Assembly: GCA_009784115.1 (NCBI GenBank)
Contig: WRCH01000009.1
Location: 1-49,107 of the forward strand
Reading direction: 5' to 3'
DNA length: 49,107 bases
Origin: Chitinispirillia bacterium
GTDB taxonomy: Bacteria > Fibrobacterota > Chitinivibrionia > Chitinivibrionales > Chitinispirillaceae
In this document: positions 3,454 through 42,590 of the stretch, piece by piece
Layout of the letters: each line of letters opens with the position of its first letter
Position numbering within the stretch: position 1 is the stretch's first letter
Position numbers and translations under genes: made by a program
Notes under the pieces: model-generated
Seen by the model: only the letters and a program-made list of their open reading frames with translations
Told to the model about the DNA's origin: nothing
Database searches by the model: none

Positions 3454-3549
3454 TATACCGAATCACGGCACACGTTTACACTGTGCCGCTAAGCGGCAGA
3501 GCCGGCCCTGCGTGCGGTGCAGTGTAAACGCGTGCCGTTTACCGGCATA
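3454..3549. repeat. palindromic repeat family P1, copy 1 (between convergent ribD and purL)
   Basis: Left arm CGGCACACGTTTACACTGTGCCGC versus reverse complement of right arm CGGCACGCGTTTACACTGCACCGC; outer ends TATACCGAATCACGG / TATGCCGGTAAACGG. Family members at 23373, 34925 and 37284. Confidence 0.9.
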
Positions 3550-13598: not shown

Positions 13599-13892
13599 TT
13601 GTATAGTATCCTTTCTGTTAATTATTTACATCGTTTTACATAACGTAACGTAAATTTTGGTATTGTTAATTTACCGCGTAAAAATGTTTGTTACTGCTCA
13701 TAAACCATACTTGCCCATTGACAATAGAACATGCTTTCTGTTTTCATAAATATTGTGGCTCTCATACTCCCGTGCCTACGCTTAAACCCAATCTCGCGGA
13801 CTCGGCTCCAAGGCTCGGTACCGGCGGCTCGCTAAGCTTTGCCGGAGGTGGAGTTACACCACCCTATATATACACGCGCCGAACTGGCGCTC

Positions 13893-23335: not shown

Positions 23336-23372
23336 CTTGCTTTGCGCATTTTCAGTGTGCTATACTGAATAA

Positions 23373-23443
23373 CGGCATAAATCTGCACTGTGCCGCTAAG
23401 CAACAGAAACGGCTCTGCGTGCGGTGCAGTGTAGATTTTTATG
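23373..23443. repeat. palindromic repeat family P1, copy 2 (convergent junction; overlaps nudix stop codon)
   Basis: Left CATAAATCTGCACTGTGCCGC; reverse complement of right CATAAAAATCTACACTGCACCGC; flank TATACTGAATAACGG. Confidence 0.88.
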
Positions 23444-34524: not shown

Positions 34525-34791
34525 TTTTTACTAACCCTTTTATTTCAGCTTTTTATGGAAATTAAGCATAATATATAAAAATACTAAATGCGTAAGGTGT
34601 ATATAAAGTAATTATATGGAATTGCTAATTACGGATGTTTTTGGGGGATGCGGTGTGCTGGGTATATCAGGTTAAAAATGCTCATTGAATTCATCTATAG
34701 AGATATGATTCTTGTCCCATAGTGTAGACAATGTGTTAAGCCTTATAGTAAAATTTATAAAATCATTGTTTAATGACAGGGGGTTAAAGTA

Positions 34792-34932
34792 ATGGGTAAG
34801 AAAACATTAAGGCGTGAGTACAGCAAGGAGTTCAAGGCTGAAGCGGTTGCGCTTGTGCGTAAAGGGGAGAAGCCAACATATTTTCGTTTTTCATTTTTGC
34901 GAAATTGTATATTATACTGGTGTGCGGCATAA
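34792..34932 (+). pseudogene. 5' remnant of an IS3-type transposase OrfA
   Basis: MGKKTLRREYSKEFKAEAVALVRKGEK typical OrfA N-terminus, then unrelated; stops at a TAA inside palindrome P1 copy 3. Confidence 0.7.
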
Positions 34933-35005
34933 ATTGACACTGCGCCGCACGCAGCTGCACGTAGGGCCGTGAGGCTGCTTAGCGGCACAGTGTCAATTTA
35001 TGCCG
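34925..35005. repeat. palindromic repeat family P1, copy 3
   Basis: CGGCATAAATTGACACTGCGCCGC and reverse complement of right arm CGGCATAAATTGACACTGTGCCGC (1 mismatch over 24); TATACTG flanks on both sides (tatactggtgtg / ttagtcagtata). Confidence 0.93.
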
Positions 35006-35083
35006 TTAGTCAGTATATAAAGCTATTGGCTTCCATAGACGGGATTAGACGTCAAAAAATAAAAATGTTTCGGAGATCTTTTA

Positions 35084-36973
35084 ATGGCTTTCGTAAATAA
35101 CATATACAACACTAATTTTCTTGAATACGCATCCTACGTAATAAAAGACCGGGCGATCCCGCACGTTGACGACGGTTTAAAACCGGTACAGCGGCGCATT
35201 TTGCACACGCTTTTTGAAGTGGATGACGGTAAATTCCACAAAGTCGCCAATGTTGTGGGTCAGTGCATGAAGTATCATCCGCATGGAGACGCCTCTATCG
35301 GGGATGCGCTTGTAACATTGTCTAATAAGAATCTGTTTATTGATCAGCAAGGTAACTTTGGCAATATTTTTACCGGTGACCCAGCCTCGGCTGTACGTTA
35401 CATTGAATGCCGTCTCTCTCCGCTTGCGAGAGAGGCTCTGTTCAATCCTGAGATCACTGAATTTGTTGACTCTTACGACGGCCGTAACCGTGAACCTGTC
35501 ACCCTGCCCTCAAAACTTCCGGTGCTGCTCGCTCTTGGCGCGGAGGGTATCGCGGTGGGTATGGCGACAAAAATTCTGCCCCATAACTTAATAGAACTTA
35601 TGGAAGCGCAGGTCGTTTTCTTAAGAGGAAATTCGTTTACGATTTATCCCGATTTTCCAACAGGCGGATTTGCGGATGTTTCAGAGTATGACGATGGCAA
35701 CGGTAAAGTGCTTTTAAGAGCAAAGCTTGACATAAGTGACCCCAAGCGTATTGTCATAAGGGAGCTGCCTTACGGTTCCACCACAGAATCTATTATTGAC
35801 TCTATCGAAGCCGCAACCCGTAAAGGTAAACTTAAAGTAGCGGGAATAAGCGATTTTACAGCCGAAAATGTAGAAATCGAGGTAAGGCTCGCGCGCGGGG
35901 TTCACACACAGGATACGGTAGACGCGCTATATGCGTTTACAGATTGTGAATCATCCGCATCAGTCAACCTTATGGTAATTAAGGATGAGAAGCCTGTTGT
36001 GATGACAGTGACGCAAGTCATTCAGCATAACTCCGAAAAACTTGTTGAGATACTGAAAGCGGAGCTTAAACTTGAAGAGCAAAAACTAAAAGATAGACTG
36101 CACGCAAAAACGCTTGAGCAGATTTTTATTGAAAATCGCGTCTATAAGAAAATCGAAGATGAGAAAACTTCCGACGGCGTAGTTAAAGCGGTGTTTGACG
36201 GACTCAAACCTTTTCAAAAACTGATTAAAAGAGAAGTTGTCAAAGATGACATTGACACACTGTTAAAAATTCCTATCAGACGCATCTCCCTTTACGACAT
36301 CAACCGCGCGAAAAAAGAGATGAAGGAGATTAACGACAGGCTCAAGGAGATAAAGCAGGCTCTTGGCGCAATTGTCGAATATACAATAGAGTTTTTGGAA
36401 AAAATCATCGAAAAATACCGTAATTTACACCCGCGGCGTACAGAGCTTATCTCATTTAAAAAGGTTGACGTGAGAGAAGCCGCGCAGCGTAATCTAAAAT
36501 TACGTTATGATAAAGATACCGGTTATCTCGGGCATGAGGTAAACGGCAATGTGCTTTTTGATGTCTCTCAATACGATAGGGTTCTTGTCATAAGAAAAGG
36601 CGGAGCTTACTCTGTAATAGATGTGCCTGAGAAGTTATTCGTTGACAAAGGGATGCTTTACTGCGGGTTTGTGGATAAAGATCTCATATTCAACGTAATT
36701 TACAGAGACGATAAAACAAAATTCCCCTATATAAAGCGGTTCAAGATTGAGCAGTTTATCCTGAATAAAGGCTATACCATTGTGCCTGATGACTGTACTT
36801 TACTGCGTCTCACCACAGACTCAGAGGCGGTGGTAACAATAGATTACAAACCTCAGCCGCGCCTAAAGAAACTTGAAGATAGTTTTTCTGTTAAAAACTA
36901 TCTTGTCAAAGGTGTAAAAGCGGGCGGGGTGAGACTTTCTAATAAAGAGATGAAATCGCTCAAGATGTCGTGA
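35084..36973 (+). CDS. type IIA topoisomerase subunit A (topoisomerase IV / ParC-like)
   Basis: YASYVIKDRAIPHVDDGLKPVQRRILHTLFE, YHPHGDASIGDAL, QGNFGNIFTGDPASAVRYIECRLSPLA (catalytic Tyr). Confidence 0.92.
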   Translation: MAFVNNIYNTNFLEYASYVIKDRAIPHVDDGLKPVQRRILHTLFEVDDGKFHKVANVVGQCMKYHPHGDASIGDALVTLSNKNLFIDQQGNFGNIFTGDPASAVRYIECRLSPLAREALFNPEITEFVDSYDGRNREPVTLPSKLPVLLALGAEGIAVGMATKILPHNLIELMEAQVVFLRGNSFTIYPDFPTGGFADVSEYDDGNGKVLLRAKLDISDPKRIVIRELPYGSTTESIIDSIEAATRKGKLKVAGISDFTAENVEIEVRLARGVHTQDTVDALYAFTDCESSASVNLMVIKDEKPVVMTVTQVIQHNSEKLVEILKAELKLEEQKLKDRLHAKTLEQIFIENRVYKKIEDEKTSDGVVKAVFDGLKPFQKLIKREVVKDDIDTLLKIPIRRISLYDINRAKKEMKEINDRLKEIKQALGAIVEYTIEFLEKIIEKYRNLHPRRTELISFKKVDVREAAQRNLKLRYDKDTGYLGHEVNGNVLFDVSQYDRVLVIRKGGAYSVIDVPEKLFVDKGMLYCGFVDKDLIFNVIYRDDKTKFPYIKRFKIEQFILNKGYTIVPDDCTLLRLTTDSEAVVTIDYKPQPRLKKLEDSFSVKNYLVKGVKAGGVRLSNKEMKSLKMS

Positions 36974-36992: not shown

Positions 36993-37229
36993 TTACATCG
37001 CAAGTTTATCTTCGAGCGTGTTGCCTACTTTTTGCCAAAGCTCAGTGGTACGGATCGCCTCACCTTTTCTAAGGGCGAACCTTTCGCGGCAGCGCTCAAT
37101 CTCTTCATCTATCTGCTCTCTGCTTAAACTGTATTTTTCTTCAAAATAATCGTAGAGCTCCTCGCGGGATTCCCATTTGAAATCTGTTGTTCGATTTACA
37201 CGCAGTCTGTCCATTTTCTCTTCTGACAT
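36993..37229 (-). CDS. hypothetical protein
   Basis: 78-aa ORF MSEEKMDRLRVNRTTDFKWESREELYDYFEEKYSLSREQIDEEIERCRERF..., coding-like composition. Confidence 0.65.
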   Translation of the reverse strand: MSEEKMDRLRVNRTTDFKWESREELYDYFEEKYSLSREQIDEEIERCRERFALRKGEAIRTTELWQKVGNTLEDKLAM

Positions 37230-37283
37230 TTTTCTGAATCCTATCTTATATTTTATGATACTGATAAATTATATACTGAACCA

Positions 37284-37355
37284 CGTCATAAATTGACACC
37301 GCACCGCACGCAGGGCCGGCTCTGCTGCTTAGCGGTACAGTGTCAATTTATGACG
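37284..37355. repeat. palindromic repeat family P1, copy 4 (overlaps ispE stop codon)
   Basis: CGTCATAAATTGACACCGCACCGC and reverse complement of right arm CGTCATAAATTGACACTGTACCGC; flank TATACTGAACCACG. Confidence 0.92.
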
Positions 37356-38208
37356 ATAATAACGTTTCTGTTATTAACGTACGATAATCAAGAGAACTTG
37401 CAACCTTTTTAGCATGATCAGAATCTAACGCAATACCGTACATTGTTGACCCCGAACCGCTCATCCCCGCCGCAAGACAACCCGCTTTAAGCAAATCCGC
37501 GCGAATCTCTTCTAACTTTGGAAACCGCTTAAATACGGATATCTCAAAATCATTATGCACAAAGTGCGCCGTACCTTCAAAACTGCCCTGTTCAAGAGCG
37601 CTTTTGAGATGATCTGTTATTAAAATACTTTTTCCAACACCGCTGTAGTCAAGAGAAGCGTACGCATCTTTTGTACTCACTCCAAAATCGGGGAGTACCA
37701 ATACAAAACATATTTTTAAATTTGTGTTTATAGATTCAAGCACACCGGTAGTCTCGCTGTCAAACGCGGTTTTTCCGGTGAAGAAAAACGGCACATCCAT
37801 TCCAAGCTGCCGGCCAAGAGCGCAAAATTGCTCGTGTGTAAAATTGAGTTCCCAAAGCTCATCGAGGATGGTAAGCATAGCAGCAGCGTTTGCCGACCCG
37901 CCGGCCATACCTCCCATTACAGGGATCTTTTTTTCAATAATAATTTTAAGCGGCTGATCAATATCAAATTGCTTTCTGACAAGTTCACATGCCTTGAGAC
38001 ATATATTGCTATTGTCAAGAGGAACAAGAGGGTTATCGCACTCTATCAAGTCATGGCGGTAAGGCTCCGCGTGGAGCGTATCGGCCAAAGCTACCTGATG
38101 CTTGATAATCCCCAATTCATGATACCCTTGCATCGGTCCGTCTTCAAGACGGCGGACGATATCAAGGGCGAGAGTTAAGCGGGTGGGAGAGGTTTTTGTA
38201 ATCATCAT
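37348..38208 (-). CDS. ispE: 4-diphosphocytidyl-2-C-methyl-D-erythritol kinase
   Basis: GHMP kinase motifs KKIPVMGGMAGGSANAAAML and AAGMSGSGSTMYGI. Confidence 0.93.
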   Translation of the reverse strand: MMITKTSPTRLTLALDIVRRLEDGPMQGYHELGIIKHQVALADTLHAEPYRHDLIECDNPLVPLDNSNICLKACELVRKQFDIDQPLKIIIEKKIPVMGGMAGGSANAAAMLTILDELWELNFTHEQFCALGRQLGMDVPFFFTGKTAFDSETTGVLESINTNLKICFVLVLPDFGVSTKDAYASLDYSGVGKSILITDHLKSALEQGSFEGTAHFVHNDFEISVFKRFPKLEEIRADLLKAGCLAAGMSGSGSTMYGIALDSDHAKKVASSLDYRTLITETLLSS

Positions 38209-38768
38209 TCAGCCAAGAAAACATCCGCCGCAGTGATTTGACAATCGGGCAATACACTAACCTGTACGGTATCTGTATCACCATATGTTTTTCCGATATA
38301 ATCGCCGTTGTCAAGTATATTAACAGTTATTGTCCTTGAAGCCGGATCAACTATCCAATACTCCCGTACCCCTGCCGTTTTGTAAAGATTATATTTTGTC
38401 CAGCGGTCGTGGCGCGTAGTGGAGGGGGAGATAATTTCAATGATGAAATCGGGTGCACCTATGCCTCCTTTTTCATCTATTTTTGAATTATCACATATTA
38501 CCGCTAAATCAGGCTGAACAACAGTATCATCTCCGTCGTCAGCATTCAGGCGAACATCAAAGGGAGCGGGAAAAAGTCTGCAGGGTTTACCTTTTAGAAA
38601 CGTACCGAGTTGCAATATAAGTTCCGTAAGTATCCCCTGATGAAGCGGCGACGGCGCCGACTGCATTTCAAACGCTACTCCATTGATAAGCTCCCAGCGC
38701 TTGCCATCTTCCCATGTACAGTAATCAGCATAAGTGTAAAGTTCATCTTTTCTTTGCGGTAATGACAT
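38205..38768 (-). CDS. Uma2 family endonuclease (DUF820-like)
   Basis: MSLPQRKDELYTYADYCTWEDGKRWELINGVAFEMQSAPSPLHQGI...VQPDLAVICDNSKIDEKGGIGAPDFIIEIISPST; start at 38768 preceded by aaaggag. Confidence 0.93.
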   Translation of the reverse strand: MSLPQRKDELYTYADYCTWEDGKRWELINGVAFEMQSAPSPLHQGILTELILQLGTFLKGKPCRLFPAPFDVRLNADDGDDTVVQPDLAVICDNSKIDEKGGIGAPDFIIEIISPSTTRHDRWTKYNLYKTAGVREYWIVDPASRTITVNILDNGDYIGKTYGDTDTVQVSVLPDCQITAADVFLAE

Positions 38769-38897
38769 GGTTTTCTCCTTTTCGATAACGATCATACATA
38801 CATAAATATAATACATTGAAGCAACCAATAATCCAGCAATCACGGCATATTATTTGCACAAATAAATAATATAAAATGTTAAAGAGGAGCTGTAAAA

Positions 38898-39338
38898 ATG
38901 AATAAACAAGATTTTCTGACGATGACGCGTCATTTAGTTGATGAATCACACGCGGCGGTTCTCGCCTCTACAGACAAAGACGGGCACCCGCATATCCGCT
39001 GGGTGGTGCCGGGATTTTTGGGAAATCATGAAGGGGCGATTTACACAGTGAGTGTGGCGACTTATCCCAAAGTTGATCAGTTTCTTAATAATCCCAACGC
39101 GGAGATGATGCTGCAAACTCCGGGGTTAACAAAGATTGTAAACCTGCGCGGCATCATTAATGTTCTTGACAATCCAACAATCAAATCCGAAGTTTTGGAG
39201 TGTTTGGGTGAGCGGCTTCACGCTTTTTGGAGAACCACAAAGCCGGAGGGTGATCTTGTTGTTTTGGAATTTGTACTTAAGGAAGCAACTTACTATGTAC
39301 CAATGAACAATAACCGTCTTACGGTTTTTTTAGGATAA
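38898..39338 (+). CDS. pyridoxamine 5'-phosphate oxidase-like FMN-binding protein
   Basis: AAVLASTDKDGHPHIRWVVPGFL...YTVSVATYPKVDQFLNNPNAEMML. Confidence 0.85.
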   Translation: MNKQDFLTMTRHLVDESHAAVLASTDKDGHPHIRWVVPGFLGNHEGAIYTVSVATYPKVDQFLNNPNAEMMLQTPGLTKIVNLRGIINVLDNPTIKSEVLECLGERLHAFWRTTKPEGDLVVLEFVLKEATYYVPMNNNRLTVFLG

Positions 39339-39353
39339 TACAGGCAGGTAACA

Positions 39354-40370
39354 ATGAGCAATGAACAGCGCGCAGATTCCAAAGCAAATAATAATTCCGC
39401 AATGCAACGTGATCAATCAAAATCACTGCAACTCAGACTGCTTAAAAAAATGCTCCTTATCCGCCGCTTCGAAGAGGCAGCGGCGCGCATGTACGGTTTG
39501 CAGAAGATAGGTGGGTTCTGCCATCTTTACATAGGGCAGGAGGCGGCCGCTGTCGGCGTTATAGAAGCGCTTGATTTGAAGCGTGATTATGTGCTTACCG
39601 CCTATAGAGATCACGGAACCGCAATAGCGTGCGGAATGGAGAGCGGCCCTCTTATGGCAGAGCTTTACGGTAAGGAGAGCGGATGCTCTAAAGGCAAGGG
39701 CGGCTCTATGCACTTTTTTGATAAAAAGCGTCATTTTTTGGGAGGCAACGGAATTGTGGGCGCTCACATCCCCCTTGCCGGCGGAGTTGCAATGGCTGTG
39801 AAGTATAATAAAAGCGGCGGAGTGGTGATCTGTTTTTTTGGAGACGGCGCGATTCACCAAGGGTCTTTTCATGAGACTCTGAATATGGCCGCGATATGGA
39901 ATCTTCCTGTACTTTACATATGTGAAAATAATAGATACGGGATGGGAACGGATTTTCGCCGCGTAAGCAGTGTTACGGATTTTAAGGCTGTAGGGGGCGG
40001 ATACGGAATAGAGAGTAAAAGCGCAAACGGTATGGATGCTGCAGAGGTCTATAACACCACTTTGGAGATCACCGAAAAGATGCGCGCCAAGAATGCCCCC
40101 GCGTTTTTAGAACTGCAAACTTACCGTTACAAAGGACACTCGATGAGTGATCCGGGGCGTTACCGCAGCCGCGAAGAGCTTGATCACTATAAAGAGCAGG
40201 ATCCCATTACGCTTCTGCGCTTTACAATGGAGAAAAGCGGATTTGTTGACGAAGAGCAATTTAAAAAGATGGATTCAGAGGTTAAAAAAGAGGTAGAGAC
40301 AGCGATTAAATTTGCCGAAGAGAGCAGAGAGCCGCCTGTTAAAAGCTTATATGAGGATGTGCTGGCGTGA
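39354..40370 (+). CDS. pdhA: pyruvate dehydrogenase E1 component alpha subunit
   Basis: RFEEAAARMYGLQKIGGFCHLYIGQEAAAVG, GDGAIHQGSFHETLNMAAIWNLPVLYICENN (TPP motif). Confidence 0.94.
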   Translation: MSNEQRADSKANNNSAMQRDQSKSLQLRLLKKMLLIRRFEEAAARMYGLQKIGGFCHLYIGQEAAAVGVIEALDLKRDYVLTAYRDHGTAIACGMESGPLMAELYGKESGCSKGKGGSMHFFDKKRHFLGGNGIVGAHIPLAGGVAMAVKYNKSGGVVICFFGDGAIHQGSFHETLNMAAIWNLPVLYICENNRYGMGTDFRRVSSVTDFKAVGGGYGIESKSANGMDAAEVYNTTLEITEKMRAKNAPAFLELQTYRYKGHSMSDPGRYRSREELDHYKEQDPITLLRFTMEKSGFVDEEQFKKMDSEVKKEVETAIKFAEESREPPVKSLYEDVLA

Positions 40371-40456
40371 GATCTTGCGGGATATCGCGGTGGGTTTTAA
40401 CCTCTGGCTATGGGGGAGAGATAACGTTTGACAACAAGCAAGGATCATAATCCAAA

Positions 40457-41434
40457 ATGTCAACAATAACTTTTAGAGAAGCATTGCGGCAGGCGATTGA
40501 CGAAGAGATGGAGCGTGACTCTTCTGTCATAATTATGGGGGAAGAGGTTGCGGAGTATCATGGGGCTTATAAGGTAAGCCAGGGGCTTTTTGAAAAATAC
40601 GGATCAGCGAGGGTGATTGACACACCGATATCTGAGGAGGGGTTCACCGGAATTGGTATTGGGGCGGCGATGGCGGGGATGAGACCCATAGTTGAGTGGA
40701 TGACTTTTAATTTTTCTCTGCAAGCGCTTGATCAGGTTTATAATAACGCGGCGAAGATGCGTTATATGTCCGGCGGACAATTTAATATTCCCATAGTCTT
40801 TCGCGGCCCTAACGGGCCGGCAGAGTTTTTGGCGGCTCAGCACTCTCAGGCGCTTCAATCAATTTACTGCCACTGTCCGGGACTCAAGGTCATGGCTCCC
40901 TCAACTCCTTACGATGCCAAGGGGATGCTTAAAACAGCTATTCGCGATGATAATCCGGTTGTGTTCTTGGAGAGCGAACTTATGTATGGATGGAAAGGAG
41001 AGGTGCCGCAAAAGGAGTATGTTATTCCATTCGGGTCGGCCGATATAAAACGAAGCGGGAAAGATGTAACCATAATCACCTTTTCAAAACCTGTGAAAAT
41101 GGCTCTTGAAGCGGCTGATGCGCTTGTACAAATAGGAATAGAGGCAGAGGTTGTTGATCTGCGCAGTTTGCGTCCTCTTGACGAAGAGGCAATTTATAAC
41201 TCGGTGAAAAAAACTAACAGATGTGTTGTTGTGGATGAGGCGTGGCCTTACGCGAGCGTTGGAAGCCACGTTGGGTTTTTAGTATCAAGCGCGTGTTTTG
41301 ATTATCTTGACGCTCCTGTGCAGCTTGTGTCAGGTGAGGATGTTCCGATGCCCTATAATCACAATCTCGAACTTGCGGCGCAGCCGTCTGTGACAAAAAT
41401 TGTTGAGGCTGTGAGGAGTATTAAAAATGGCTGA
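40457..41434 (+). CDS. pdhB: pyruvate dehydrogenase E1 component beta subunit
   Basis: MGEEVAEYHGAYKVSQGLFEKYGSARVIDTPISEEGFTGIGIGAAMAGMRPIVEWMTFNF. Confidence 0.95.
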   Translation: MSTITFREALRQAIDEEMERDSSVIIMGEEVAEYHGAYKVSQGLFEKYGSARVIDTPISEEGFTGIGIGAAMAGMRPIVEWMTFNFSLQALDQVYNNAAKMRYMSGGQFNIPIVFRGPNGPAEFLAAQHSQALQSIYCHCPGLKVMAPSTPYDAKGMLKTAIRDDNPVVFLESELMYGWKGEVPQKEYVIPFGSADIKRSGKDVTIITFSKPVKMALEAADALVQIGIEAEVVDLRSLRPLDEEAIYNSVKKTNRCVVVDEAWPYASVGSHVGFLVSSACFDYLDAPVQLVSGEDVPMPYNHNLELAAQPSVTKIVEAVRSIKNG

Positions 41435-42590
41435 AAAAATATTGATGATCGCGCTTTCGCCTACAATGGAGGCGGGTGTTATTACAAAGTGGAATAAAAA
41501 AGTTGGTGATAAAGTATCAACGGGTGATCTGCTCTGTGAGGTTGAGACAGATAAAGCGGCTATGGATTACGAATCACAGATTGACGGCACTATTTTAAAG
41601 ATTTTGGTTCCCGACAAAACGCGCGTTAAAGTAGGTGATCCTATTGCCGTTATTGGGGAGGATGGAGAGGAATTCTCCGGTTTGTTAGATTTATCAACAG
41701 AAAAAAAGACAGCGCAATCATCCATACACAGTGAAAATCTGCCCGGCGGCGTTAAAGCATCTCCCTTAGCAAGAGAGACCGCGCGAAAACTTGGCGTGGA
41801 TTTACACTCTGTTGAGGGAAGCGGTCCGGGCGGCAGGATTGTTAAAGAGGATGTGGAACAGAACGCGGCGGCGATCAACAATAAAAAAACTACAGAAACC
41901 GGCGCAGTAACATTCACTGCTGAAAAACTAAGTGAAAAACGCAGGGTGACAGCCCGGCGTATGTCGCAATCCGCAGCAAATATTCCTCATTTCTATTTGT
42001 CAATACCGGTACGTATGGACTCTATTATCCATACCCGAAATTCACTTAACAAAAAGCGCGGTAAAAAAATCTCAATGAACGCATTTTTAATAAAATTCGT
42101 TACAGTTGCTCTCCGGCGTAATCCGCAAATAAACGCCTCATGGCAGGATGACAGTATAAAACAGTTTTCAAATATTGATATAGGGCTTGCCGTCGCGTTA
42201 TCTGACGGACTTATCACCCCTATTGTTAAAAACTGCGAAGCAAAAGGTATTTTACAAATTGATGATGAATTGAAAATTTTGATTGACAAAGCGAAATCAG
42301 GCAGGCTAACGCCCGAAGAATACACCGGAGCCACATTTACAATAAGTAATCTTGGCGCATGGGGAGTACGTTCCTTTACGGCTATCATAAACCCGCCTGC
42401 GTCTGCCATACTTGCAGTAGGTGAAATCTTCAAGGAACCGGTTGCTGATGAGGATGAAAAAATTGTTGTGCAATCAAGGATGATGCTTACTTTGTCAAGC
42501 GATCATCGTGTGATTGACGGGGCTATGGCCGCTGCGTTTGCCGCGGATTTGCGGGGTATTATGGAGAATCCGGCCGAGGCGTTGTTTTAA
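41427..42590 (+). CDS. pdhC: dihydrolipoamide acetyltransferase (E2), single lipoyl domain
   Basis: Lipoyl motif ETDKAAMDYES; E3-binding ASPLARETARKLGVDLHSVEGSGPGGRIVKEDV; catalytic LSSDHRVIDGAMAAAF. Confidence 0.94.
   Translation: MAEKILMIALSPTMEAGVITKWNKKVGDKVSTGDLLCEVETDKAAMDYESQIDGTILKILVPDKTRVKVGDPIAVIGEDGEEFSGLLDLSTEKKTAQSSIHSENLPGGVKASPLARETARKLGVDLHSVEGSGPGGRIVKEDVEQNAAAINNKKTTETGAVTFTAEKLSEKRRVTARRMSQSAANIPHFYLSIPVRMDSIIHTRNSLNKKRGKKISMNAFLIKFVTVALRRNPQINASWQDDSIKQFSNIDIGLAVALSDGLITPIVKNCEAKGILQIDDELKILIDKAKSGRLTPEEYTGATFTISNLGAWGVRSFTAIINPPASAILAVGEIFKEPVADEDEKIVVQSRMMLTLSSDHRVIDGAMAAAFAADLRGIMENPAEALF

Follow-up and report, generated by a model that had tools for sequence, protein, structure and literature searches.

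What are the four palindromic sequences scattered through the window (the whole 49,107-nt stretch of DNA that was analysed), and do their cores truly invert relative to their flanks, as an earlier note on this DNA proposed for two of them? The four copies exist and belong to one dispersed repeat, which we refer to as P1, with limits wider than first noted for copies 2–4; P1 is a small mobile hairpin element that carries no gene. The positions of the copies, with the strand on which the core is oriented, are as follows:

3454..3549, minus strand: P1 copy 1, both ends kept, between convergent ribD-like and purL-like genes
3486..3517, minus strand: conserved core of copy 1, short form
23361..23443 (high-coordinate limit approximate), minus strand: P1 copy 2, right-hand TATA end lost, adjoining a NUDIX gene
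23393..23424, minus strand: conserved core of copy 2, short form
34913..35017, plus strand: P1 copy 3, full length with near-perfect arms
34945..34985, plus strand: conserved core of copy 3, long form with an extra AGCTGCACGC-type stretch
37272..37355, plus strand: P1 copy 4, right-hand N5-CAGTATA end lost
37304..37335, plus strand: conserved core of copy 4, short form

Copy 3 lies upstream of the gene for a topoisomerase subunit A (35084-36973), and about 35 bp before this copy ends a segment (34706-34878) that resembles the beginning of an IS3-type orfA and has pieces up to 97% identical elsewhere in the genome. A sequence at 14653-14670 matches the P1 end, yet no element stands behind it. 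The window also holds repeats of other kinds. A 96-bp direct repeat (935-1030 and 2170-2265) is 99% identical over a separation of 1235 bp, and two types of small hairpin repeat, one of the GCATCCCTTCGGGATGCGG type (24756, 32909, 44663) and one of the CCCCGGGTTAAAACCCGGGG type (30365, 32878, 44631), twice occur near each other. Between genes, at 13739-13856 on the minus strand, lies a fragment that Rfam matches to group II intron domain 1-4/6 with 56.4 bits, which exceeds the gathering score; no obvious intron reverse transcriptase gene adjoins it.

Across the MAG of the uncultured host (Chitinispirillales, Fibrobacterota; bin 89% complete, 5.6% contamination) P1 is about 105 bp long, mostly intergenic and found in either orientation. 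It is laid out as TATACTG-N5, an 18-bp arm, a conserved core, the matching arm and N5-CAGTATA; written in the orientation of the core it reads TATACTG-N5-CGGCATAAATTGACACTG-CA-CCGCACGC(AGCTGCACGC)AGGGCCG(GCTCT or TGAG)GCTGCTTAGCGG-CA-CAGTGTCAATTTATGCCG-N5-CAGTATA. A strict core pattern matched the genome 40 times against 0 for its reversed control and an end pattern 212 times against 0 for its control, so the repeat is not a product of chance. A covariance model built from 36 copies, searched against the genome and its relatives, found at least 90 full matches here and related elements in four genomes of another genus, and a core model found at least 123 P1 cores in the MAG among 150 scored matches; given the 5.6% contamination of the bin, a few of these copies may belong to a sister organism instead. 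TATA is conserved at both ends in 84-90 of 92 copies, beyond which the sequence is AT-rich and otherwise unconserved. Such ends appear compatible with a TA target but are no proof of one. P1 is thus short, repeated, devoid of coding capacity and bounded by conserved inverted ends, the features by which a MITE is recognised; among the end-pattern matches listed, half of the total, no autonomous transposon shares its ends.

P1 occurs in clusters and as tandem copies, and some copies are degenerate, truncated or mosaic. One tandem array (L250:1355-1549, corresponding to G000:C19:11836-12030) has three P1 cores 73 bp apart, and its inner units are missing the left half of the element. A multi-copy gene beside some copies reads as a methyl-accepting chemotaxis protein and is unrelated to P1.

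The apparent core flip in the window has a simple explanation. Both ends of P1 carry the same inverted repeat, TATACYG-N5-CGGCAY, and each arm repeats the other in inverted form, so inversion of the whole element visibly reverses only the asymmetric core. What had been read in copies 3 and 4 as a core reverse-complemented behind the same flank is therefore mostly the orientation of an entire element, which is nearly palindromic and inserted either way round. The N5 stretches, however, differ between the two ends (GTGAA versus AACCA, for example) and provide an independent polarity, by which the majority of copies genome-wide share one end/core order. Copy 1 (GTAAA/AATCA) and copy 3 (GTGTG/ACTAA) have this majority order, copy 2 is consistent with it, and copy 4, without its right end, can be read either way; a true core/end swap is proven by no copy in the window. 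When core orientation is tabulated against flanks across the genome, about 10 of the 89 copies scored show a core swapped relative to the ends, and swapped orders occur within the end types GTACA/CATAA, GTGTA/AATCA, GTGAA/AACCA and AGTAA/CTTCA. A minority inversion of the core relative to the ends, or an exchange of ends between copies, is thus real. Random orientation among flanks with no real similarity, which the earlier note had named as the outcome that would count against its proposal, is not what the genome holds, as the shared TATA ends attest.

That the outer arms vary among copies while each remains complementary to its partner is borne out well beyond the window. Double changes, on both sides of a pair, are found in 67 cells of the alignment of 36 copies, compared with 26.2 +/- 3.1 in shuffles (none of 500 reached 67), none of the slid controls came near that value, and the covariation score is 0.242 compared with 0.120 in shuffles; nine of 24 stem pairs are changed on both sides, a pair count that alone is not above shuffles. 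In 89 copies the two arms differ on average at 1.28 of 18 positions, as opposed to 3.18 when right arms are permuted (n=2000; lowest mean 2.63). Perfectly matched arm types stand up to 7 of 18 positions apart from one another, which indicates that changes arrive in matched blocks, and a few mosaics (L177:1914, L171:206) carry two different arm types. Stem covariation is strong and lies far beyond shuffles, which goes against the other outcome that the earlier note had named. Of the proposal that P1 is either a structured element under selection or the result of arm homogenisation with core flipping, the constraint, the covariation and, genome-wide, the minority flips hold up; the flip in the window copies does not. 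The data suggest that selection on the fold and homogenisation of the arms by copying, which are compatible with each other, are both acting.

The mismatches that do recur in the stem are asymmetric between strands: most are A.C on the core strand and hence G.U on the opposite strand. The expectation that remaining mismatches would mostly be G-U pairs thus holds on the reverse of the CCGCACGC...GCTTAGCGG strand and fails on that strand itself. In the other genus the core strand has 119 A.C against 25 G.T. In the MAG the counts are 119 against 1 in distinct copies at the fixed CA/CA site and 19 against 8 at one core pair (p about 0.05), whereas ordinary arm positions are even at 54 against 44, with no strand bias. 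Counted by columns, about eight are mostly A.C within a genome and none mostly G.T (two-sided sign test about 0.008), although these columns are partly related by ancestry; because shared columns dominate the cell counts outside the ordinary arm positions, the asymmetry depends on these recurrent columns. The predicted fold is very stable, averaging about -54 kcal/mol on one strand and about -59 kcal/mol on the other, and the opposite strand gives the more stable predicted RNA in 31 of 36 copies.

Gene context offers no counterpart to this asymmetry. The genes flanking 83 copies are convergent in 16 cases, divergent in 22 and co-directional in 45, like random placement, and P1 often lies within a few bases of the end of an ORF. 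Since gene context is random, the strand preference most likely belongs to the copying cycle of P1 itself, and, judging from the even counts at ordinary arm positions, individual copies seem to undergo neutral decay once inserted. The pattern expected from selection for G.U would, however, also result if a single-stranded intermediate were subject to strand-specific mutation bias.

Evidence of movement comes from copy 4 (37272-37355), which is missing from the same gene junction both in the co-binned contig G000:C103, where the flanks of the empty site are 82-84% identical to those of copy 4, and in contig C52 of the congener G001. This empty site implies that P1 has moved. It is the single empty site seen and falls at a copy without its right end, where a target duplication is unreadable; clean syntenic empty sites were sought for copy 1 and for copies in L190 and L174, and none was found. 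Locus L229, on the same contig G000:C103, is about 83% identical to window positions 36994-41685. A sister organism seems to be included in the bin and to be the source of the empty site.

P1-type elements occur in five of 151 phylum genomes: this MAG (G000) and the four genomes of the other genus, in the same family, with 45 (G010), 48 (G015), 9 and 65 core matches (G018 and G020 being the remaining two carriers), 167 cores in total. The hairpin tip is common to both genera (GCAACTGCACGTAGGGCCGTGAGGTTGC in this genome, GCAACTGCACGACAGCCGTGATGTTGC in G015 and GCAACTGCACTTAGAGCAGTGATGTTGC in G020); the arms in the other genus differ in sequence and are often at least 30 pairs long, and they are still complementary. 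The core model found no P1 cores in the congener G001 or the other family members searched, and viral contigs had no match for two core patterns. Strict-core matches in another genus of the phylum, g24 (L041-L045), belong to a different repeat, CCGCACGCGGACANATTACGGCCTTCGGCCTTTACTGTCCGCTTAGCGG, from which the P1 ends and arms are absent and whose own ends and arms are unrelated to them. Another repeat, apparently palindromic, at L190:347-416 has many short matches in the P1-free G001.

How might such an element spread? The reading we prefer, and to which we give about an even chance of being right, is that P1 is a non-autonomous, gene-less MITE-like element that propagates via a strand-specific folded single strand, has its arms matched by template switching, and decays without evident host function. 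The folded strand would be ssDNA, or RNA opposite to CCGCACGC...GCTTAGCGG, and the mobilising machinery would recognise its hairpin tip, in which case the tip should be conserved, the arms free to drift so long as they pair, and G.U tolerated on one strand. Template switching between the arms during replication, a published source of matched multi-base stem changes (PMC8794818), would rewrite one arm from the other and so produce matched-block changes, and this process or recombination between the arms may sometimes invert the core relative to the ends; core/end swaps could alternatively arise from exchange between different copies. Inserted copies would then decay with no evident function for the host. 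Searches for IS630-type and Y1 transposases did not lead to a mobilising enzyme for P1, which counts against this reading.

The TATA at both ends, the near-random flanks, the length of about 105 bp and the intergenic spread would equally suit an ordinary double-stranded DNA MITE mobilised in trans by a DDE transposase with TA targets (IS630/Tc1-like) or by some other transposase, with arms matched by template switching and no strand-specific fold, and TA-ended precedents such as RUP are known (PMC2229807). We nevertheless regard this as unlikely. Such an element does not predict strand-asymmetric wobble columns, and arm-to-arm copying should correct the fixed CA/CA mismatch that is present in nearly all copies; moreover, IS630-type DDE_3 (PF13358), the one DDE family searched for, is absent from all five carriers. 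A strand-specific hairpin, clusters and tandem copies would be expected if P1 were a REP-like hairpin mobilised on ssDNA by a RAYT/IS200-type Y1 transposase; preserved pairing is reported for REPs too (PMC2817692), and this genome encodes a RAYT-like Y1 protein. The tested Y1 loci, however, carry no flanking P1 copy, Y1 transposases are found in some carriers only with a distribution that does not track P1, and there is no Y1 match in G010 or G015 despite their 45 and 48 cores (MAG incompleteness weakens these absences). As P1 is also far longer than a REP and has no evident GTAG/GGAG head, we think this origin quite unlikely.

It is very unlikely, in our estimate, that P1 is a bacterial SINE-like hairpin that would spread by transcription into RNA, reverse transcription and reinsertion, with the tip serving for recognition, the arms rewriting each other as copies are made and the core inverting incidentally. 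That the host retains P1 as a functional RNA element acting on adjacent genes, whether as terminator, regulator or stabiliser of 3'UTRs, would fit the very stable fold and the location between genes, often a few bases from an ORF end, but it is highly improbable. Orientation relative to genes is random, and terminator and 3'UTR roles were rejected on this ground; the congener has the same gene pair without P1; and copies are degenerate, truncated and mosaic. No T-run follows any of the four window copies, so that the earlier view of them as something other than simple terminators stands. Nor is there an Rfam family: the four window copies had no match at gathering score, and elsewhere only generic miRNA-type hairpins matched below threshold.

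Compensatory changes are usually read as evidence of selected RNA structure, and template switching in replication yields them too (PMC8794818). P1 preserves a natural record of the way in which long hairpins are copied and their arms stay matched: with at least 123 cores here and 167 in four relatives, of known strand and including mosaics and core inversions, the two causes are separable by counting. Were the mobilising enzyme found, a transposition system that recognises hairpins would also become known from a little-studied phylum.

Our literature search found no paper on repeats in this bacterial group, which is no proof of absence. Among known systems, P1 resembles the palindromic MITEs RUP, Correia/NEMIS, ERIC and the Rickettsia palindromic elements (RPE), which are about 100-150 bp long, present in many copies, mostly intergenic, hairpin-forming and gene-less; RUP and some RPE also carry TA at their ends (PMC2229807). 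Unlike these elements, P1 has arms that vary freely yet stay matched around a conserved tip, wobble mismatches that favour one strand and, in some copies, a swapped core/end order, and where an IS630-type partner has been proposed for RUP, none was found in the five P1 carriers. REPs share with P1 high copy number, species specificity, clustering and pairing preserved between variants, but they are 20-40 bp long, have a GT(A/G)G head and flank a rayt gene (PMC2817692), in contrast to the roughly 105 bp, TATACYG ends and lack of such a head in P1. Because the defining feature tested failed in each case, P1 is not filed under REP/RAYT or IS630-linked MITEs. The repetitive and double hairpin elements of sponge and Allomyces mitochondria are likewise short, dispersed hairpins of scattered distribution, and an RNA intermediate has been suggested for those of Allomyces; the sponge elements are organellar and keep the stem while the loop varies (PMC2800124), the reverse of the bacterial P1. 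Template-switch mutation of RNA hairpins produces matched two-arm changes, of the kind that P1 displays, without step-by-step compensation (PMC8794818), but it is a mutation process and not an element, and on its own does not evidently account for the strand bias of the remaining mismatches. By anatomy, then, P1 is a palindromic MITE-like repeat, set apart by matched arms that drift around a fixed tip, by wobble on one strand and by core/end swaps.
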